Shown piece after piece: positions 1 through 19,124 of a stretch of DNA of 20,324 bases (positions within the stretch are counted from its first letter, which is position 1; the number at the start of each line of letters is the position of its first letter). Position numbers and translations under genes: made by a program. The notes beneath the pieces are model-generated. The model ran no database searches. It was not told the DNA's origin and saw only the letters and a list, made by a program, of their open reading frames with translations. This DNA comes from a virus: positions 1 to 20,324 of IMG/VR virus record IMGVR_UViG_3300018481_000817; one strand, written 5' to 3'.

Positions 1-170
1 TCCTTCTCGTCGTGGGCGGCGTCCTTCATTCGGCGGAGGGTCTCCCGCCGTCGCCAGGACGCCACGTCGGCCGCGATCTCGCGGCGCTGCTCGGGGCTGA
101 GCGGGGGAGCTGTGGCGAGCTGGCGTTGAATCCAGGCCTCCATGTCCGGGTCCGGGTCGGGGGTCCTCAC
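1..170 (-). CDS. small conserved hypothetical protein, partial (cut by window edge)
   Basis: About 56 codons are visible and the 3' end lies outside the window. The chosen start is GTG at 170, whose GTGA overlaps the TGA stop of the upstream HTH gene, the same coupling used by many genes here; an ATG at 143 is the alternative. The peptide has an acidic, Pro-rich start, then EAWIQRQLATAPPLSPEQRR and a basic stretch (WRRRETLRR). The W-I-x-RQL-x-x-APPLS-x-EQR pattern is familiar from small proteins of unknown function in actinobacterial phages and integrative elements, often close to HTH genes. It would be the second gene of the early leftward operon. No function is assigned. Confidence 0.6.
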   Translation of the reverse strand, partial: MRTPDPDPDMEAWIQRQLATAPPLSPEQRREIAADVASWRRRETLRRMKDAAHDEK

Positions 171-478
171 GGGGTCCCCACAGACACCCGCCTGCTCATC
201 TCGGCAACCAGGACGTCACCGGGGATGTCGGCAGGGTTGACCAGGGTGGCCTTCCGGAGCGCGGCTTCCTCGGCGGTCAGGTGACCGGCGGCAACGAGGG
301 CCTCGGCAGGGGAGAGGTTGAAGGTCCGGGCGAAGGAGATGGCCCCTTCGGCGGACGGGGTGTAGCGGCCGTGGAGCCACCCGGAAAGGGTGGTCGGGTG
401 GACGCCGAGCCGGGTGGCGGCGGCGTGCTGCTTGGTCGATCCGATGGCAGTACGGACGAAGGCGGCCCAGGTGCTCAA
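167..478 (-). CDS. XRE-type HTH regulator, Cro-like / early-operon side
   Basis: This 103-aa protein has a helix-turn-helix at roughly residues 17-37 (QHAAATRLGVHPTTLSGWL), the Cro/C1 type. The second half, with the AGHLTAEEAA stretch and a VLVAEMSRRV end, matches the plan of the divergent regulator at 709-1071, so the two look like distant paralogues. The start is TTG at 478, preceded by AAAGGGG at a suitable distance; no better in-frame ATG lies near. It is the first gene of the leftward early operon and faces the plus-strand repressor across a 230-bp gap, the normal place for a Cro-like antagonist. It would bind DNA as a dimer in the cytoplasm. Which of the two genes holds lysogeny is inferred from orientation alone. 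Confidence 0.75.
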   Translation of the reverse strand: MSTWAAFVRTAIGSTKQHAAATRLGVHPTTLSGWLHGRYTPSAEGAISFARTFNLSPAEALVAAGHLTAEEAALRKATLVNPADIPGDVLVAEMSRRVSVGTP

Positions 479-708: not shown

Positions 709-1071
709 ATGGCCCGAGATAAGTGGCGCGACTACGTGCTAGCAGTGACCGACGGTGATTCCCAGCGCGCGATTAAGGCGAAGACGGGAATCGACCAGGG
801 GACAATCTCCCGCTGGGTGAGCCCTACCCAGGAGCGCTCACTGTTGGAGGCATCCACAGCTAGAAAGTTCGCCACGGCATATCGGAGGCCAATCCTTGAG
901 GTGCTCGTCCACGCCGGGGTCTTATCGGAGGGTGAGGCTGGCATTAAGGTGAATCCGCCGGAGTCGCTGGCCGACACGCCGACCGTGGATTTGATTCTGG
1001 AGATGCGACGCATGGCCAATGAGCTGTCGCGCCGGATATCTGATGCCACCGATGGGGTGACAGGTATCTGA
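709..1071 (+). CDS. immunity-repressor-like HTH protein
   Basis: This 120-aa protein has an N-terminal helix-turn-helix at about residues 18-38 (DSQRAIKAKTGIDQGTISRW), followed by a short all-helical part and a basic/acidic C-terminal helix (LILEMRRMANELSRRI) that may dimerise. There is no protease or peptidase domain, so it is not a LexA-type self-cleaving repressor. The ATG at 709 has AAGGTG seven bases upstream. With the next gene it is the only transcription unit running against all others, the usual sign of the lysogeny-maintenance gene in actinobacterial temperate phages. It resembles the Cro-like gene at 167-478 in length, HTH position and the C-terminal EMRR/EMSRR segment. Operator copies 1 and 2 lie just upstream. 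The repressor role is inferred from orientation and position. Confidence 0.75.
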   Translation: MARDKWRDYVLAVTDGDSQRAIKAKTGIDQGTISRWVSPTQERSLLEASTARKFATAYRRPILEVLVHAGVLSEGEAGIKVNPPESLADTPTVDLILEMRRMANELSRRISDATDGVTGI

Positions 1072-1608: not shown

Positions 1609-3198
1609 CTATCGCCAAACGATGGCCACCCGGTCCTTGTCGAACTTGGGGCCAGCGGCGCGCGACCCCGGCTTGATGATGACCGCCTCGACCAGGCGCT
1701 CGATCTTGGCCCGGCGCTCACCCATGGACATCCCTGCCCACATCTCCGGAGTCACCGGAGCGACCGGCGGACCCACGGTCGCGTGGATGAACTCCTCCCT
1801 CGCGGCCACCAGCTCGTCCTTCTCGTCGTCCAGCTTGTTCGACATCCGGTAGTAGCGCGCGGCCGGAACGTTGCCCGCCATGTACTCGGCCTCCAGCTCC
1901 GCCAACATCTTGCGGACCTCGGCCAGCCGGGCATCCCCCTCGAACTCGGGGGCAACAGCGTCCTCGGTCTTCACGGTGGCGTAGCGGGCCAGCACCGCCT
2001 TCGTCACCACCTCGTCCACTCCAGCTCCGGTGGCCGTCACCACGTGCCTGTCGTCGGTGGAGACGTTGCCCACGCCGCAGAGGTAGCGGTGCGTGTTCCG
2101 CTCCTCGATCCACACCCCGGTCATCCGCGCTCGGCAGCTCCCACAGCGCACCAGTCCCGAGCACAGGTACCGGCGCGCTCCCGGCCGCGACCCTGCCCCC
2201 TTCCTACCTCCGCGCCCGTCGAGGACGGCCTGGAGGCGGTCATAGGTGTCCACGTCCAACAGCGGCTCCCACTGCCCGCGCACGATCACGTCCTCCTCGT
2301 CGGTGACCACCTCTCCCCGGTAGACCGAGTAACCGGCGAGCCGGGGGTTGCGGAGCATCTGGCGGAGCACGGTGGGGTGCCAGGGTGAGCCGGTGATGGT
2401 GGCCACCCCGTCCGCCTGCCAGCGGTCCGCGATGGAGCGGATGGTGGCCCGGCCCTCCATGAGGTCGTTGATGGCCTCCTCCAGGAGCCCGGCCTCGTCG
2501 GTGTTGAGGCTGGCCCGCTCCTCGGTGGTCTGGGCCTTCCAGGGGATGTCCGAGCGACCCCACCCGAACGGGCGGCGCGCGGGGAAGTTGGTGCCCAGCT
2601 CCGAGCGAGCCTTGATGGCGCGGGCGATGCGCTCCGCGATCCGCTCGGCCTCGGCAGTGTCGACGGCGGCCAGCATCCGGGCGATCATCCGACCGTCAGC
2701 GGTGGCCAGGTCCCCGGTGCCGGACACCTTGGTGACGAACTGCGCTCCGGCGCGCTCGTGCATCCGGATGAGCAACTCCAGCTCCATGGGTCGTCGGGTG
2801 AGCCGGCTGTTGGAGTAGGAGAACACCCGCTTGATCTGGCCGGTGATGATGTAGGCCAACAGGCGCTCGAACTCGGGTCGCGGCTTGCGGGAGCGGGTGG
2901 ACGCCCCGATGTCGTTGTCACGGAACCAGTTGGCTTCCGGCACGGTCACCCCGGCGGCTTTGGCCAGACCGAGGTTGTCATCCCGCTGGCGAGTGACCCC
3001 GACCTCGCGGCCTTCCTGGTCGTCGCTGATCCGCTCGTAGAAGGCGTCGGTGGAGTCGAGCCGGGGGAGGCCGCTGTTGATGAGAGCGTCCACCCGGCGC
3101 AGCGTGCCCTCGATGAAGTCCTTCATGAGGGCGGAGGCGGCGGCGTCCTGGACGATCCCCGGGGTGTTGGAGCTGGGGGTGATGGCTGTGGTGCTCAT
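1609..3198 (-). CDS. int: large serine integrase
   Basis: This 529-aa site-specific recombinase would integrate the phage genome at a bacterial att site. The N-terminal resolvase domain (about 53-200) carries YERISDDQ with the likely nucleophile Ser58 and Arg56, the SRLTRRPMELE block (131-141), and ends in a long helix (AERIAERIARAIKARSE). A recombinase domain follows (about 205-335; FPARRPFGWG, HPTVLRQMLRNPRLAGY). Next comes a zinc ribbon with Cys346, Cys352, Cys355 and Cys374, and a helical coiled-coil region (about 420-475). ATG at 3198 is chosen because GGAAAGGA lies upstream; the open frame extends further but without support. The 57 residues before the catalytic Ser are longer than usual (about 10-20). 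It is the last gene of the operon starting at 4372. attP should lie beside one end of the gene. Confidence 0.95.
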   Translation of the reverse strand: MSTTAITPSSNTPGIVQDAAASALMKDFIEGTLRRVDALINSGLPRLDSTDAFYERISDDQEGREVGVTRQRDDNLGLAKAAGVTVPEANWFRDNDIGASTRSRKPRPEFERLLAYIITGQIKRVFSYSNSRLTRRPMELELLIRMHERAGAQFVTKVSGTGDLATADGRMIARMLAAVDTAEAERIAERIARAIKARSELGTNFPARRPFGWGRSDIPWKAQTTEERASLNTDEAGLLEEAINDLMEGRATIRSIADRWQADGVATITGSPWHPTVLRQMLRNPRLAGYSVYRGEVVTDEEDVIVRGQWEPLLDVDTYDRLQAVLDGRGGRKGAGSRPGARRYLCSGLVRCGSCRARMTGVWIEERNTHRYLCGVGNVSTDDRHVVTATGAGVDEVVTKAVLARYATVKTEDAVAPEFEGDARLAEVRKMLAELEAEYMAGNVPAARYYRMSNKLDDEKDELVAAREEFIHATVGPPVAPVTPEMWAGMSMGERRAKIERLVEAVIIKPGSRAAGPKFDKDRVAIVWR

Positions 3199-3221
3199 GG
3201 TGTGTGGTTTCCTTTCCAGTG

Positions 3222-3256
3222 CCGCCCCGGGCTTGTTACAGGCATGCCCGGGGCGG
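3222..3256. repeat. inverted repeat upstream of the integrase
   Basis: A perfect 11-bp inverted repeat, 3222-3232 against 3246-3256, has a 13-nt loop. It fills most of the 67-bp gap between the small zinc-binding gene and the integrase start. No T-run follows on the minus strand. It may attenuate transcription into the integrase, act as a terminator, or be part of attP, which for serine integrases is often directly 5' of the gene. Confidence 0.5.
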
Positions 3257-3265
3257 TCCACGGTC

Positions 3266-3421
3266 TCAGGGGGTCTTGAGGTCCAGGTCGAGGTGCAGGG
3301 CACACTCGCGGCAACAGGGCACCTCGCCCAGGATTGGGTGTGTCACGGTCCCGGCGGCGGGGCGGGGGCAGCGCGCGAACCACTCGCACAGCCCACCCTT
3401 GCTACGGCGTGCCTGCTTCAT
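3266..3421 (-). CDS. 51-aa cysteine-rich protein, probable zinc binder
   Basis: The peptide has a basic start and then CEWFARCPRPA (Cys12, Cys18), HPILGEVPCCREC (His28, Cys36, Cys37, Cys40) and an acidic end. The C-x5-C plus C-x2/3-C arrangement fits a small zinc-binding fold, of a kind seen in many actinophage genomes with no known role. Its ATG overlaps the stop of the upstream gene (ATGA), so it is translated with that gene. It is the last gene before the integrase. Confidence 0.7.
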   Translation of the reverse strand: MKQARRSKGGLCEWFARCPRPAAGTVTHPILGEVPCCRECALHLDLDLKTP

Positions 3422-3603
3422 CGCGCGTCCTCCTTGCGGGCCTCGATGGAGCAGGAGAGGGAGAGCAGGGCGAAGGCCACGGCCGCAGCTCCACCCGTGA
3501 CGGCGGAGGTGAGCGTCCCGTCCAGCGCGGTGTTCACGGCGGTGATGACCACCATGAGGGTGGCGACGACTCGGTAGCCGAAGGCCTGGGTCTCGCTCCT
3601 CAT
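3418..3603 (-). CDS. small two-pass membrane protein
   Basis: This 61-aa protein has hydrophobic stretches at about residues 11-26 (VVATLMVVITAVNTAL) and 33-50 (SAVTGGAAAVAFALLSLS) joined by a short loop, with a basic tail. Its ATG shares one base with the TGA of the upstream gene (TGATG), and its own stop overlaps the next start. The tight coupling on both sides supports a real gene. No family is recognised. Confidence 0.65.
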   Translation of the reverse strand: MRSETQAFGYRVVATLMVVITAVNTALDGTLTSAVTGGAAAVAFALLSLSCSIEARKEDAR

Positions 3604-3953
3604 CAGGCACCAACCTCGGTACGCAGGAGGTACTCCCGGTCCTCACCCTGTTCGCGCCGGGGTTCGGTGAGAGCTGAGACCGGCACCTGGGCGGTGACGA
3701 CGTCGATGTTGCGAATGACGGCCGAGTCGGCAAGGACCTCCAGGACGACCACCCGCTGGACCCAGCCCGTGGTCGGGTCGGTGTAGGTCGCGGTGACCAG
3801 GTGGCCGCCGTCGAGCGCGATCCACAGCTCGGCCGCATCCCGGGTGTTGAACGCCGGGGTGGTCTGAGCCGCGTCGGGGTCCTGGCCCGGCAGCATCGGT
3901 TCGTAGACGGTGCCGCCGCTGGTGGTGCCGCGCTCGTGGATGTAGTAGTGCAT
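3603..3953 (-). CDS. hypothetical protein, 116 aa
   Basis: ATG at 3953 is chosen because AAGGAGAG lies just upstream; longer in-frame starts lack this. The protein is soluble and largely beta-strand in appearance (HLVTATYTDPTTGWVQRVVV, VLADSAVIRNIDVVTAQVPV), with a flexible Gly/Thr-rich segment near the start and an acidic/basic end. No catalytic motif or family was recognised. It sits in the operon from 4372 to the integrase. Confidence 0.65.
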   Translation of the reverse strand: MHYYIHERGTTSGGTVYEPMLPGQDPDAAQTTPAFNTRDAAELWIALDGGHLVTATYTDPTTGWVQRVVVLEVLADSAVIRNIDVVTAQVPVSALTEPRREQGEDREYLLRTEVGA

Positions 3954-4647: not shown

Positions 4648-5340
4648 TCACTGCTCCTGTTCCTCCTCGAACTGAGGGAGCAGTACCTGTGCGTTGGCCT
4701 TGGCGATGTCCACAGCCAGCTCCCCCACCCCGCAGATGCGGAGGCTGGAGGACGCGATCACGTACGGCGACTTGACCCGGTTATAGTCCCCGTCCTTGAT
4801 CCAGTTGATGACGTTCTCCGCCGAGGTGATGAGCAGCGACCCCAACTGGGGACCGGTCGAGTCGAGAACGGCGTGAGTAGCCACCCGCCGCCCGATCCGG
4901 TGGTAAGCGGAGGTCAGCTCCTTGTGTTGGACGGCGAAGTCCGGGACCTTGTCGCGCGCGTCTGGGAGCATGCCGATCAACCCCGAGTTGTGGGGCGCGC
5001 TGGCGAGCGTGTGCACGTCGATGAGGGTGAGGAGATAGAGCGCGGTGGCGGGGTCCTCGGTGAGGTTCTCCACCACGTCCACCTGTTCCAGGGTGGGTCG
5101 GATCGACGCGCCCACCACCTCGGTCAGAATCTCCTCCTTGCCGGTGGCGAAGTGGTAGTAGAGCGAGGCCTGCCGAATGCCCACCGACTCCGCGATATCG
5201 CGGGTGCTGGTGTCGGCGAAACCCTTCTCCACGAACAGCCTCGCCGCCGCGTCGAGAATCTGTTCCCGGGGGGACATGCCGTAGCCGTTGTTGTCCGGCA
5301 GGTGGCGGGGACGGCCCGGTCGGCCGCGCCGCTCAGACAC
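4648..5340 (-). CDS. TetR-family transcriptional regulator
   Basis: This 230-aa protein has a basic arm RRGRPGRPR at residues 4-12 that resembles an AT-hook. A classic TetR DNA-binding domain follows: REQILDAAARLFVEKGFADT, then the HTH TRDIAESVGIRQASLYYHF (about 46-64). The helical C-terminal domain would bind an unknown ligand and dimerise. The start is GTG at 5340 with GGAGGTGG upstream, overlapping the preceding gene by 8 bp. It is the last gene of the operon from 7682 and is followed by a terminator. TetR genes are not standard parts of the phage switch, so it is probably host-derived cargo controlling a host or phage promoter. Its target is unknown. Confidence 0.9.
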   Translation of the reverse strand: MSERRGRPGRPRHLPDNNGYGMSPREQILDAAARLFVEKGFADTSTRDIAESVGIRQASLYYHFATGKEEILTEVVGASIRPTLEQVDVVENLTEDPATALYLLTLIDVHTLASAPHNSGLIGMLPDARDKVPDFAVQHKELTSAYHRIGRRVATHAVLDSTGPQLGSLLITSAENVINWIKDGDYNRVKSPYVIASSSLRICGVGELAVDIAKANAQVLLPQFEEEQEQ

Positions 5341-5686
5341 GGGGACCACCTCCGGCGACCGTGGCGTTACAGGCGGCACGGTCGAAGGCCTCGGCGTCTT
5401 GCTCCACAACGACGCGGAGGAGGTCAAACGCGTCTACCCCCTGAACGGCCAGGCGGGTCAGCTCCTTCGTGGTGAAGTCGCCGTTGAGGATGCGGAGTTT
5501 GGTGTCCGAGAGCTGGCCCATCGACCTCGTAGCAATCGCGTGCTGAATCATCCGCGACACGTGCTGAGGAAAGCCGTCAAGCGGCTGTGCCCCGCACGAG
5601 CACAGCGCTTGATCGAACGGGCAATCTGGTTCGTAAGTGTGGGTCGTAATCACGTCGGCGATGATGTCACCGGTTGTGTTACTCAT
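5333..5686 (-). CDS. hypothetical protein with CxC...H motif, 117 aa
   Basis: The N-terminal half has DCPFDQALCSCG followed by FPQHVSRMI (Cys22, Cys29, Cys31, His42), a possible zinc site. This pattern recurs in small actinobacterial phage proteins of unknown function. The C-terminal half is helical and acidic (TRLAVQGVDAFDLLRVVVEQ). ATG at 5686 has GGAAGGAA at good distance. Its end overlaps the TetR start by 8 bp, so the two are likely co-translated. Confidence 0.65.
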   Translation of the reverse strand: MSNTTGDIIADVITTHTYEPDCPFDQALCSCGAQPLDGFPQHVSRMIQHAIATRSMGQLSDTKLRILNGDFTTKELTRLAVQGVDAFDLLRVVVEQDAEAFDRAACNATVAGGGPRV

Positions 5687-7851: not shown

Positions 7852-8433
7852 TCAGTCGTAACAGCGCTTGGGAGGGTCGGGGTAGGGGTTGGCCGCCTGG
7901 GTCTCCCCGGACTTCTGAACCAGCTCGTCCAGGGCGGCATAGGCCTTCCGGTGTTCCTCCAGTGCCCCACGGAACCGAGCTGTGTCCGGCGCGTCATTGC
8001 CGGGCTCGAACAGCGGGGGCACCGCCGCGAAGACAGCGGCGACCGTGCTGTCCAGCTTGTCCCTAGCTTTGGTGACGGCGGAGTTGCGCGACGTGCGTGC
8101 GTCCAGGGCGACCGCGAACTCGGTGGCCCAGGTGGAGAGGCACTCCAGGGACTCGGCGCGCTGCTCCTGTTCCCGCTCGACCCGCTCGGAGGCTCGGGTG
8201 GACATCACGGCCGACCAGATCACCACGGCGAGCATGAGGATGATGACGAGGTCGCGGGCTCGCTCCAGGGAGAGGGTGACAGCTCCGCGCTCGTCCATCT
8301 TGTTGGTGATGTCGTCCATCTTGGCGTCGATCTCCTTCGTGAGGTCGCGGGTCTGCCACAGCGCTCGGCCGAACCAGCCGACAGCGTTTCCGGCCGTGAA
8401 CGCGACGGCGGCGAGGAGGAGGTCAGACCACAT
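7852..8433 (-). CDS. membrane protein of the lysis cassette, 193 aa
   Basis: TM1 is at about residues 4-24 (DLLLAAVAFTAGNAVGWFG) and TM2 at about 60-79 (LVIILMLAVVIWSAV). They are separated by a charged helical region (LTKEIDAKMDDITNKMDERG) with coiled-coil character. The C-terminal 110 residues are helical, with a Pro-rich end and one terminal Cys. ATG at 8433 lies inside the holin gene (11-bp overlap) behind AAGGAGGA, so the two are co-translated. It could be a second holin, an antiholin or a spanin-like helper. The location supports a lysis role; the exact function is unknown. Confidence 0.7.
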   Translation of the reverse strand: MWSDLLLAAVAFTAGNAVGWFGRALWQTRDLTKEIDAKMDDITNKMDERGAVTLSLERARDLVIILMLAVVIWSAVMSTRASERVEREQEQRAESLECLSTWATEFAVALDARTSRNSAVTKARDKLDSTVAAVFAAVPPLFEPGNDAPDTARFRGALEEHRKAYAALDELVQKSGETQAANPYPDPPKRCYD

Positions 8434-8626
8434 CGTCGTCCTCCTTCTTGTCCTTGCGCTTCTTCTCGGAGTGTCCGAGCCAGTTGACGACCGCGCCGAC
8501 CACGGCACCGATGGTGGCCAGGGTGGTGGGGGAGAGGTCCATGCCGAGCTGCTTGCCCCACACGAGCGCGATCACGGCGACGGCACCGGCGGTGATGATG
8601 ACCCACTGAGGAACGGTGGACACCAT
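8423..8626 (-). CDS. holin-like protein
   Basis: This 67-aa protein has two hydrophobic helices (about residues 8-24 and 33-51) and a highly charged C-terminal tail (HSEKKRKDKKEDDD), the usual plan of a small phage holin. Holins collect in the cytoplasmic membrane and open it at a set time, releasing or activating the endolysin. ATG at 8626 has AGGAGGAC directly upstream. It sits two genes after the endolysin, with the EEP-family gene between them. Confidence 0.75.
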   Translation of the reverse strand: MVSTVPQWVIITAGAVAVIALVWGKQLGMDLSPTTLATIGAVVGAVVNWLGHSEKKRKDKKEDDDVV

Positions 8627-8632
8627 GTCCTC

Positions 8633-9415
8633 CTAACGGGTGTTGAGGACTGTTCCCCGGAGGGAATGGTCGGAATTGAGCCGTCGGGTGAACTTGTGGG
8701 TCACCCTCCACCCGGTCCGGGCGACGGCGATGTGGTCGAGCGCCCGGGGCGCGGGAGTGGTCCAGTGCCACCGGGTCATGGCGGGGATCTCCGGCTCGCG
8801 CCGGTTCCAGTCCCCACCGATCACCAGCGGTCCGGCCGGAAGGTGTTCTCGAGTTGTGGTCCAGGCCTGCCGCCACCGGTCGGCCCGGTGCTCCCTCCGG
8901 CAGCCGTTGCGCTGGGGGTAGTGGAGGGAGAGCGCGGTGAACCGTTGTCCGGTGTCCCGGAGCTGGAGCGGGGCCAGGGTGACCCAGCGCGCGGGGTTGT
9001 ATGAGGGTGAGCCGTCCGGGCACCTCGGGGTGGGGTCGGAGACGCGGAGCGCCTCGGGCTCACCAGCGCCGCGTAGGCGGGCGGTACGCCACGAGATGGG
9101 TACTCCGCCCGCTGTGCGCCTGGTGGTGGCCCAGGGCCGCCCTAGCGCCTCCCGTACGGCCCGGTAGTCGCTCCGCTCCCCAATCTCCTGCCACAGCACC
9201 AGGTCACACGAGCGCGCGGCGGTCCGTACGTCCTCGCGCACCTGGTGGTCCGGCATGTCCGGGGTGTTCTGGATGTTGGCGGTACAGACCCTCAGCCGGC
9301 CCTCGTCACCGTGTGCCGGGGTGAGGCCCACGGCGTCGACGAACACCACCAGGGCCACCACCAGGGTCAAGGACCCCATCACAACAACGAGCCGGGTCAA
9401 GTCCTTCCCGTTCAC
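8633..9415 (-). CDS. membrane-anchored or secreted EEP-family (DNase I-like) hydrolase
   Basis: This 260-aa protein has an N-terminal hydrophobic helix (about residues 9-29), which is a signal peptide or anchor. It is followed by an endonuclease/exonuclease/phosphatase fold with all core motifs: TANIQN (45-50), WQEIG (Glu77), SLHYP (His165), GGDWN (Asp202, Asn204), DHIAV (Asp227, His228) and SDHSL (Asp249, His250). The family cleaves phosphodiester or phosphoester bonds in nucleic acids, lipids or sugars with a divalent metal. The GTG start overlaps the endolysin stop (GTGA). Placed outside the membrane it might degrade DNA released at lysis, or a cell-envelope phosphodiester such as teichoic acid. 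The substrate is not shown by the sequence. Confidence 0.85.
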   Translation of the reverse strand: MNGKDLTRLVVVMGSLTLVVALVVFVDAVGLTPAHGDEGRLRVCTANIQNTPDMPDHQVREDVRTAARSCDLVLWQEIGERSDYRAVREALGRPWATTRRTAGGVPISWRTARLRGAGEPEALRVSDPTPRCPDGSPSYNPARWVTLAPLQLRDTGQRFTALSLHYPQRNGCRREHRADRWRQAWTTTREHLPAGPLVIGGDWNRREPEIPAMTRWHWTTPAPRALDHIAVARTGWRVTHKFTRRLNSDHSLRGTVLNTR

Positions 9416-10158
9416 TCGCGGAAGTTCCGTCCCAGGCCGATCCGGGACAGCGACAACATGTCCGGAGTGGCGGCGCGGCCGGTGCCCCCGACGCGCAGCT
9501 CGTGAGCCTTCCAGGCGGCCACGGTCCGCTTGCCGACGTAGCCGTCCACGACGAGCCCAGCTCCGTACTTCTTGTTGAGCGCGATCTGGATGTTGCCGGT
9601 GCCGTGGTAGCGCTGGATGTCTCCGAGGTCGAGCCCCTGGGCGATGCGGAATTGGGACTGGATGATGCCGAGGTTGGAGATGGCCGAGGGAGAGGGAACC
9701 CAGCTCGGGACCTGCCCGGGGAGCTGGTTCTTCTTGATCCGCTGGGCGATGCCCCGGAGGGTGGTCGAGTTGGTGATGATGCCGAAGTGCATCTCGTCCT
9801 TGCGACCCTTGTAGTTGCCACCCCAGCGGACGGTGCCTTCCAGGTCCTTGAGGATCTTCTGGATGGCGGCATTCTGCTTGGCCGAGAACGACCCGGTGAC
9901 CCCAAGTACGTGGGCAGGAGCGTTTAGGTCGATGGCCGTACCTGACGCATGGTTGGACAGGGTGGAGGACCCGATGATGTCCCGGTAGCTATACCCCCAG
10001 GACCAGGCCTTGTTGATCTTCTCCACCTCGGCGTTGAACCGCTGGCAGAGGTAGTTGAAGACCGTGTGGACGTCTCCGGCCGCGACCGAGCCGGTGATCC
10101 AGGACAGCGGCTCCAGGTGAGCGGGAGGAGCTGGCCACCCGTTCTGGGAGACGCTCAT
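9412..10158 (-). CDS. endolysin, M15-type peptidase with peptidoglycan-binding domain
   Basis: In this 248-aa protein, the N-terminal domain has SNHASGTAIDLNA with His70 and Asp77, and DEMHFGI with Glu122 and His124. These are the zinc and catalytic residues of the VanY/L-alanyl-D-glutamate peptidase group (peptidase family M15). The C-terminal domain (about 178-222) resembles a PG_binding_1 fold (IQIALNKKYGAGLVVDGYVG). No signal peptide is seen, so export would depend on the holin. ATG at 10158 overlaps the TGA of the upstream small gene (ATGA). It would cut the peptide stem of the host wall at lysis. Confidence 0.9.
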   Translation of the reverse strand: MSVSQNGWPAPPAHLEPLSWITGSVAAGDVHTVFNYLCQRFNAEVEKINKAWSWGYSYRDIIGSSTLSNHASGTAIDLNAPAHVLGVTGSFSAKQNAAIQKILKDLEGTVRWGGNYKGRKDEMHFGIITNSTTLRGIAQRIKKNQLPGQVPSWVPSPSAISNLGIIQSQFRIAQGLDLGDIQRYHGTGNIQIALNKKYGAGLVVDGYVGKRTVAAWKAHELRVGGTGRAATPDMLSLSRIGLGRNFRE

Positions 10159-16760: not shown

Positions 16761-19124
16761 TCAGGCGGCTCCTGCTCGTGCGGTCTGGGCGGCCATCAGG
16801 TCGGCGGCGTCGATCCGCCCGTCCGCGAGGGCCTCGATGAACCCAATGCCGGAGGCCCAGTCGGTGATGGTCATGGCGAACCGGGTGGTGCCGCTGGTGG
16901 CCCCGGCGGTGAGCGCGGCTGTCGTGGCGGCGCTGGTGTTGGCGTCGGGGTAGGTGACCCCGGGGAGCGCGGCGTCGACGTTGGCGAGCATGGAGGTGGC
17001 CGAGGACATCGCGCGGGTCGCGGTGGGCGCTCCGCTGGTGATGCCCTTGGCCAACAGCTCCATGAGCCGCTTGCCAGCTCCGCCGTTGTTCCAGGACTTG
17101 AGCGGACCCCACTTGATCGGGCTCCCAGGGAGCAGTCCCTTGATCTTGGAGACACCGGACTGGACCTTGTCGATGGCTCCCTGGATCTTGGAGCCGATGC
17201 CGTCAACGAGCCCCTGGATCAGGCGGGCTCCGGCACCGAACAGGTCGATGCCGGTCACGACCCCAGTGAGGCGGGAACCGAGGGAGGAGAGCGCGGAGAC
17301 AGCCTTGCCGGGGATGCCCTTAATGAAGGAGACGAGCCCGTTGAAGATGGAGACCGCGCCGGACTTGATGCTGCCCCAGTTCTTGATCACCTGACCGACT
17401 GGGGTGAAGTTGAGGAACACCGACTTGACGGTGTTGAGCGCCCGGGAGACGAAGGCCTTAACAGCTCCAAAGATGGAGGAGGCCGCGGACCGGATCTTGC
17501 CCCAGTTCTGGATGATCTGACCGACCGGGGTGAAGTTGAGGAACACCTTCTTGAGGAAGCCGAAGATGGCTACGGCTCCGACCTTGATGGCGTTCCAGGT
17601 GCCGAGCACGATGGCGCGGAAGGTGTCGGACTTCTTCCAGGCGATGATGAAGATGGCCACGAGGGCCGCGATGGCCACCACGACCAGACCGATGGGGTTG
17701 GCCGTGAGTGCGGCGTTGAGGAGCCACTGACCGGCGGCCCACACCTTGGTCGCGACGGCGGCTGCCTTTCCGGCCACGGTGGACGCAATGGTGGCCACGG
17801 TGGCCCGCGCTCGGGTAGCTGTTCCCACGTTCTCAGCGGCCGTGCTGGCGGCGATGCTGGTGGCCAGGGAGCGGTTCGCGTTGGCCAGCGCGAGGTTGGA
17901 GACGACCTGGGCGGCCTGGAGCGGGATGGCTCCGATGGCGGCCACGTTGGCGGCGGCCTGGGCGGTCTTGTAGGCGGCGAACGCGACCACCAGCGCGGGC
18001 AGGTACTTGGCGAGAGTGTCGACGTGGTCGGCCGCGAACCCGATGGCGACCGCGAAGACGTTGATGGTGTCTGCTCCGCCCTGGGCGAACGCTGCACCGA
18101 GCTGGGACCAGTCCACGCCTGCGAGCGCGGAGCCGATCTTGCCGAGGGAGACGGACATCTCGGACATGGGTCCGGTGGAGGCCGAGAGCTTGGAGAAGTC
18201 GAGCCCGGAGGTGAACTTGATGAGAGCCGGCCCAATTCGGTCGATGACCGGACCGAGCTTTGCACCGATGGCGTCACCCAGCTTGGCGGCGCCAACCTCG
18301 ACGGGTCCAAGCGCGGTGGCAATGTCCTTGAACAGCGGGGCGAGGTGGGGGAACACCCCTCCCATGACCCCGGCTCCGATACGGCCGAGCGCGGCGTTGA
18401 CGTTGGCCAGGGCTCCGGTGAACGTGTCACCGCTGGACAGTGCCGCGCCGCCGAGACCGGCCTCCATGGCGGACGAGAACTGGTCGAAGGAGACCTTGCC
18501 CTCCGAGGCCAGGTTCTTGGCCTCCAGGGCGGTGACCCCCAGCTCCTTGGCGAGGAACTGGAGGACGGGGATGCCCCGGTCGGTGAGCTGGGCGATCTCC
18601 TCGCCCTGGATGATTCCACCGGCCGCGACCTTGTTGAAGATCGCGCCCATCTCGTCCATGCCGATTCCGGCGATGGTGGCCGAGTCAGCGACCAGCTTGA
18701 GCGTGTTCTCGAGTTCCTTGCCGGGCTTGATGCCGGAGGCCACGGCACCGGCGGCGGTGGTGGCTGCGGAGTCGAGTCCGAAGGCGGTGCCCTTCACCGA
18801 GGCCAGGGCGTTCTTCATGATGCTGTCGACGGTCCCGGCGTCGTGGCCGAGGCCGGTCAGCTTGGCGCGGGCCTGGTCGATGCCCTGGAGCCGGGAGAAG
18901 CCCTTGGCCAGGGTGGTTCCGATGAGCGCGACAGCTCCAGCTCCGGCGATGAGCGCTCCACCCTTGAGAGTGGTGCCGAGCGCCTTGGACATCGCCGAAC
19001 CGGTGGCCTTGCCCTGCTTGTCACCCACCTTGGCCATGTCGCCGGACAGGGCGGCGTCGGCGGCTCGTCCGAAACCTCGGGTGGAGGGGAGCAGCGAGAC
19101 GTAAGCCTGTGCGACCTCGGCCAT
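16761..19124 (-). CDS. tail tape measure protein
   Basis: This 787-aa, Ala/Gly-rich, helical protein has hydrophobic stretches at about residues 55-72 and 465-490 ([20 protein letters not shown]), the latter next to [17 protein letters not shown]-like text typical of phage tape measures. An N-terminal part ([34 protein letters not shown]) is also typical. The protein sets tail length and leaves through the tube at infection; at about 1.5 angstrom per residue the tail would be near 120 nm. ATG at 19124 has AGGAGGTGA upstream, which includes the stop of the chaperone frame. An internal 42-residue repeat is described separately. Confidence 0.95.
17372..17547 (-). repeat. internal direct repeat in the tape measure gene
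   Basis: Two 50-bp segments, 17372-17421 and 17498-17547, match at 46 of 50 bases, 126 bp (42 codons) apart. They encode the [10 protein letters not shown](I/V)I(Q/K)NWG(K/S)I motif twice. The near identity at the DNA level suggests a recent in-frame duplication or recombination. Confidence 0.85.

Follow-up and report, generated by a model that had tools for sequence, protein, structure and literature searches.

A divergent EEP (DNase I-like) gene between the endolysin and holin-like genes of a phage fragment

Phage lysis is usually described in terms of a holin, an endolysin and envelope-disrupting proteins. Prophage-encoded secreted DNases are well established, examples being sda, spd1, spd3 and spd4 of group A streptococci (PMC1949102), and within the EEP superfamily the mycobacterial protein Rv0888 is an extracellular nuclease and sphingomyelinase that needs divalent cations (PMC4733049). 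At the locus analysed here, a gene of the EEP (DNase I-like) superfamily is found within the lysis region itself, where it separates the endolysin from a holin-like gene.

Gene order in the lysis region

The window, by which we mean the whole stretch of DNA analysed, is a virus record of 20.3 kb. It carries tail genes, a lysis region and a serine integrase (1609-3303), with the genes mainly on the minus strand, and is probably a fragment of a temperate phage of actinobacterial type; no head or terminase genes were identified in the 20.3 kb. A full-length TetR-family regulator (4648-5427, minus strand; PF00440, 2.7e-16) might provide signal-sensing control, and an HTH protein (167-478, minus strand; PF01381, 2e-7) lies divergently from a weakly HTH-like ORF (709-1071, plus strand), possibly as the repressor pair of a lysogeny switch. 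The tape-measure protein (16761-19124, minus strand) has as its best match PHROG 971, which is labelled 'endolysin'; the next best matches are tape measures, and the label is probably misleading. The features of the lysis region are as follows.

9412-10158, minus strand: endolysin with an M15 peptidase domain (PF13539, 1.9e-11; PHROG 1512 'endolysin', 1.2e-25)
9412-9415, minus strand: GTGA overlap of 4 nt, the GTG start of the EEP gene lying on the TGA stop of the endolysin
8633-9415, minus strand: EEP (DNase I-like) phosphodiesterase gene, 260 aa, GTG start, 260 codons without an internal stop
9335-9391, minus strand: N-terminal hydrophobic helix of the EEP protein, residues 9-27, with K4 and R8 before it and TPAHGDEG (a possible signal-peptidase site) after it
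8642-9298, minus strand: EEP catalytic domain, residues 40-258, from the alignment with relatives (structural match range 39-260)
8612-9413, minus strand: stretch without a counterpart in the closest relative (insertion site), 802 nt compared with 26 nt there (blastn)
8629-8634, minus strand: AGGAGG Shine-Dalgarno sequence of the holin, overlapping the EEP stop codon TAG (8633-8635)
8423-8626, minus strand: holin-like protein of 67 aa, with two predicted hydrophobic segments (two-TM) and a charged C-terminal tail
7852-8433, minus strand: third membrane protein of the lysis region, with two hydrophobic segments and a charged stretch between them

The EEP gene is co-directional with the endolysin and the holin, lies between them, and shares codon letters with the former, which is the position expected of an accessory gene of a lysis cassette. 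The original prediction had placed it there in overlapping reading with both neighbours. The position and the 4-nt overlap with the endolysin stand, whereas the holin ORF lies 6 nt away, so that the endolysin overlap is the only one. The holin-like ORF is named from its sequence and position, no significant family match being found, and its true start may be the GTG at 8623. Translation of the EEP is probably coupled to that of the endolysin, as the overlapping codons suggest. A consensus scan for sigma-70-like signals, a class that does not cover the actinobacterial promoter types, found no promoter or terminator belonging to the EEP gene.

The sole close relative found is a 16.5-kb record, here called L008 (IMG/VR 3300018481_000116), which is 81% identical in nucleotide sequence over 8.7 kb. 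Scans using the holin and the third membrane protein as queries returned L008 only, and a scan using the tape-measure protein returned L008 and six more distant records. In L008 the endolysin, holin and membrane protein follow one another directly, with no EEP, and the cassette looks complete; the three proteins are 85, 70 and 68% identical, respectively, to those of the window. The flanks of the insertion are 81.4% identical up to the endolysin stop and 73.8% identical from the holin on. Given that 26 nt in L008 stand where the window has 802, and that the neighbours are kept, the EEP gene is evidently optional, and has been added or lost cleanly without disturbing the signals of the genes around it. 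An assembly chimera was considered and rejected, because both flanks are co-linear with L008 and the insertion is bounded by the codon overlap on one side and the holin Shine-Dalgarno sequence on the other.

The gene is best explained as an accessory insertion of the moron type at the endolysin-holin junction. With a single close relative to go by, a gain rather than a loss is suggested by the absence of the gene from other related records. A profile search of 39 related virus records recovered the EEP copies of the window, Circinus and Yosif, and no others. The EEP is not a conserved part of the cassette in close relatives, being absent from the one available, and since L008 keeps its endolysin, holin and third membrane protein, the EEP is probably dispensable for lysis in that lineage.

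Fold and N-terminus of the EEP protein

It was originally predicted that the protein is an intact EEP hydrolase with all its metal and catalytic motifs, beginning with a hydrophobic helix, and both parts of this description are borne out. The signature residues are N47 (ANIQN), E77 (QEIGE), H165 (LSLHYP), D202 and N204 (GGDWN), D227 (LDHI), and D249 and H250 (NSDH). Seven of them (N47, E77, H165, D202, N204, D249 and H250) are invariant in an alignment of six sequences with phage relatives at 23-30% identity, and D227 is present in the window protein.

Direct searches of the window protein against Pfam (including PF03372), PHROG, NCBIfam, PADLOC and PDB sequences gave no match, and a relative from phage Ankus reaches just 0.024 against PF03372; the EEP sub-family has thus apparently diverged beyond the reach of the Pfam model. 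When 37 related virus records were searched with PF03372 there was again no match, a negative that carries no weight, since the model misses even the window's own EEP. A family profile run against the PDB did, however, identify the EEP structure 3g6s, at 1.5e-5.

The AlphaFold model of the protein, which was repeated with five sequences, is of moderate confidence (mean pLDDT 66.9, pTM 0.71) and comes from a shallow alignment. In fold searches its closest matches are mouse TDP2 (Z 19.7 over 201 residues) and 3g6s (BVU_0621; Z 19.5), along with the mannosyl-6-phosphatase Bt3783 (Z 19.5), neutral sphingomyelinase (Z 17.9) and the SMase C of Streptomyces griseocarneus (7cne; Z 16.9); Foldseek gave an E of 2e-9 for the EEP fold. 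Membership of the EEP superfamily, with its alpha/beta sandwich, is therefore well supported, within the moderate confidence of the model. TDP2 and 3g6s have the fold and the metal-site residues in common with the window EEP; they are however only 15-17% identical to it and are not exported phage proteins, and their substrate is not transferable. Since phosphatases and sphingomyelinases score nearly as well as TDP2, the fold does not fix the substrate. The domain is compact (about 221 aa), contains four cysteines, and after residue 39 is very basic, with a calculated pI of 11.3.

The N-terminal hydrophobic stretch is 28 residues long, and its best 19-residue Kyte-Doolittle mean is 2.63, at residues 9-27. 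Across the six frames of the window, only this stretch and a transmembrane segment of the tape-measure protein have values of at least 2.6, and none of 20,000 codon shuffles of the EEP gene reached the hydropathy of its N-terminus. The relatives, which are of cytosolic type, lack this module: all of them begin at residue 40 or one before, so that the 39 extra N-terminal residues are unique to the window EEP. By its sequence the N-terminus appears to be a signal peptide or signal anchor, and the protein is most likely exported or membrane-anchored. From K4 and R8 ahead of the helix, the positive-inside rule would put the N-terminus inside and the EEP domain outside. A start at another GTG, codon 29, would yield a cytosolic protein; that GTG has no good Shine-Dalgarno sequence.

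Relatives in other phages

A tblastn search with the window EEP identified six Streptomyces phage records at 26-27% identity, and a wider search from one of these added Yosif gp5. The gp101-type 'phosphoesterase' of Circinus and BillNye and Yosif gp5 belong to the same sub-family, with 23-30% identity over the domain and the catalytic residues in common with the window EEP; the motifs ANI-N-PDM and QEIGE are shared between the window EEP and the Circinus/BillNye type. Unlike the window EEP, Yosif gp5 and Circinus gp101 have no N-terminal hydrophobic helix and do not lie between endolysin and holin. Two scans of 84,980 prokaryote species genomes, by a method that needs short exact peptide matches and may miss distant relatives, gave no hit, and a plasmid search found no EEP relative. 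The actinophages thus hold a divergent EEP sub-family that Pfam, PHROGs and NCBIfam miss.

The suggestion that the same gene order be sought in other phages was productive. A search from Yosif gp5 led to part of a 52-kb IMG/VR contig (3300037466_003953, here L088), in which blastn found no similarity between the window and the stretches compared. Its EEP (2908-3621) is of the same sub-family and has the same slot as the window EEP, with a GTGA overlap with the stop of an M15 endolysin and a holin-like gene next, into which it runs by an ATGA overlap. This holin-like gene has relatives in Rhodococcus phage REQ3 and Gordonia phage Gsput1, where they come straight after the lysin and no EEP intervenes. 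The EEP is therefore present at the endolysin-holin junction in two unrelated lineages and absent there in relatives of each, and this second lineage adds weight to the suspicion that it is out of the ordinary for a lysis cassette.

The two proteins differ in that they are only 23% identical, the L088 copy has no anchor, and a one-residue insertion separates its last D and H. Its final motif is VDFH instead of SDH, which makes its activity uncertain, and its lack of an anchor shows that EEPs in this slot need not be membrane-anchored. Indeed, the helix is absent in all three other lineages with the sub-family (L088, Yosif and Circinus), two of which carry the EEP gene away from the lysis genes. 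Were positions random among about 60 genes, the chance that one EEP of these three lineages falls in the junction would be roughly 5%, an estimate that is suggestive and does not amount to proof. Just upstream of the endolysin, L088 also encodes a membrane-anchored protein with collagen-like repeats (1734-2333).

Outside lysis regions, the non-anchored homologues have terminase or tRNA genes in their neighbourhood. The slot of the Yosif EEP in R4-like Streptomyces phages is flanked by the gene for a small membrane protein and that for the terminase small subunit. It is empty in Kaine, phiScoe25 and phiScoe10, holds a short unrelated endonuclease in Speedwell (PHROG 452, 3e-26), and holds annotated nucleases in Endor1 and Endor2. 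One nuclease standing in for another at this slot lends weak support to a nuclease role for the sub-family.

In Circinus (L002 8010-9210), and also in Ankus and DekoNeimoidia, gp101 forms a conserved pair with gp102, a papain-like amidase or peptidase (a weak, C92-like match), and the Circinus pair follows a small protein with one transmembrane segment. The 'phosphoesterase' gp47 of Circinus, beside a holin, was rejected as a third case of the gene order: it is a calcineurin-like metallophosphoesterase, which is another fold. At 44662-46487 of Circinus MK620896, a calcineurin-like metallophosphoesterase (PHROG 221, 4e-62) has a membrane protein on one side and a holin on the other, so that Streptomyces phages have a second phosphoesterase, not homologous to the EEP, next to a holin.

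Possible functions and comparison with known systems

The computed observations are an intact EEP fold with its residues, an exceptionally hydrophobic N-terminus, a clean insertion, and an EEP in the same slot of a second, unrelated lineage. On the basis of these, we tentatively propose, as the likeliest reading, that the window EEP is a nuclease, exported or anchored in the membrane, which is produced together with the lysis proteins and degrades nucleic acid at the cell surface during lysis. A late lysis mRNA would carry endolysin, EEP and holin in one message, with EEP translation coupled to that of the endolysin. The N-terminal helix would send the EEP domain through the membrane, leaving it on the outside, where it would be held at the membrane or released from it and kept away from the DNA of the phage itself inside the cell. 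At burst, the metal-dependent domain would meet and cleave spilled host DNA that would otherwise trap the progeny; the L088 protein, being soluble, would escape along with the endolysin. The benefit might be a less viscous medium in which the progeny diffuse more freely, or else destruction of the DNA of rival phages. A nuclease is preferred over an enzyme for another phosphodiester because TDP2, a DNA phosphodiesterase, is among the closest folds, because so basic a domain suits a polyanion, and because of the nuclease stand-ins at the Yosif slot. Against the proposal, the slot could simply tolerate insertions, the EEP fold is also that of phosphatases, sphingomyelinases and RNA deadenylases, the helix is confined to the window lineage, and L008 has a lysis cassette with no EEP.

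The predicted topology, with the catalytic domain outside, would equally suit superinfection exclusion or the killing of competitors, in which the nuclease, anchored on the outside of the membrane, cuts the entering DNA of other phages, either late in infection or from a prophage. The serine integrase points to a temperate lifestyle and the gene has an accessory pattern of presence and absence; moreover, periplasmic and membrane nucleases that meet incoming DNA are known, such as E. coli endonuclease I and pneumococcal EndA. We nevertheless regard this as unlikely, since the gene belongs to the late lysis operon and a scan for sigma-70-like promoters, a weak one for actinobacteria, found none for it, the L088 copy occupies the same slot with no anchor, and PADLOC gave no match. 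The same pattern of presence and absence, together with the integrase and the repressor-like HTH genes, would accommodate a lysogenic-conversion moron parked in the lysis region, whose secreted nuclease benefits the lysogen through nutrients or competition, with the prophage-borne secreted DNases of streptococci as precedent (PMC1949102). Such a role would need expression during lysogeny, however, and the consensus scan found no independent promoter, while the codon overlap with the endolysin ties the EEP to lytic expression; it seems improbable.

That the EEP has no lysis role at all, being a randomly acquired gene at a permissive site of a late operon, possibly a cytosolic nuclease or anti-defence enzyme (which its relatives in phages may also be) with an incidentally hydrophobic N-terminus, is about as improbable. 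Relatives at other loci, the sporadic distribution and the cytosolic form available from codon 29 speak for it; the second independent case in the same slot and a helix far beyond chance speak against it, as does the comparison of starts, the codon-29 GTG being poorly provided with a Shine-Dalgarno sequence and the codon-1 GTG overlapping the endolysin stop. No more probable is the idea, raised in the original prediction, that the enzyme cleaves a wall or lipid phosphodiester, here teichoic acid or phospholipid, and so aids lysis directly. It would agree with the presence of an EEP in the lysis cassettes of two lineages and with a fold that takes in sphingomyelinases such as the S. griseocarneus SMase C, and yet found no specific support: L008 keeps its cassette with no EEP, the domain is compact, and non-anchored homologues occur near terminase or tRNA genes. 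The known teichoic-acid hydrolases are, to our knowledge, of other folds.

Returning to the lysis-time nuclease, the presence of a nuclease-superfamily enzyme between endolysin and holin in each of two unrelated phages suggests that a lysis cassette may include a block against competitors or a tool for use after lysis, freeing progeny from spilled DNA. A broader reading, which we consider doubtful, is that actinobacterial phages have more than once recruited a dedicated lysis nuclease, sometimes anchored and sometimes soluble, that removes DNA from around the progeny at burst. The superfamily is a known one; in the open-access literature searched, neither an EEP within a lysis cassette nor one that combines this position with a targeting helix turned up.

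The streptococcal prophage DNases belong to nuclease families unrelated to the window EEP, and the likeness drawn here does not concern sequence or gene position. It lies in the kind of gene, an accessory phage gene for an exported nuclease, as the window EEP would be if its activity is confirmed (PMC1949102). Rv0888 differs in being a larger protein encoded by a cellular gene, and its likeness does not come from sequence comparison; it is, like the proposed window EEP, an actinobacterial enzyme of the EEP superfamily that acts outside the cell (PMC4733049).
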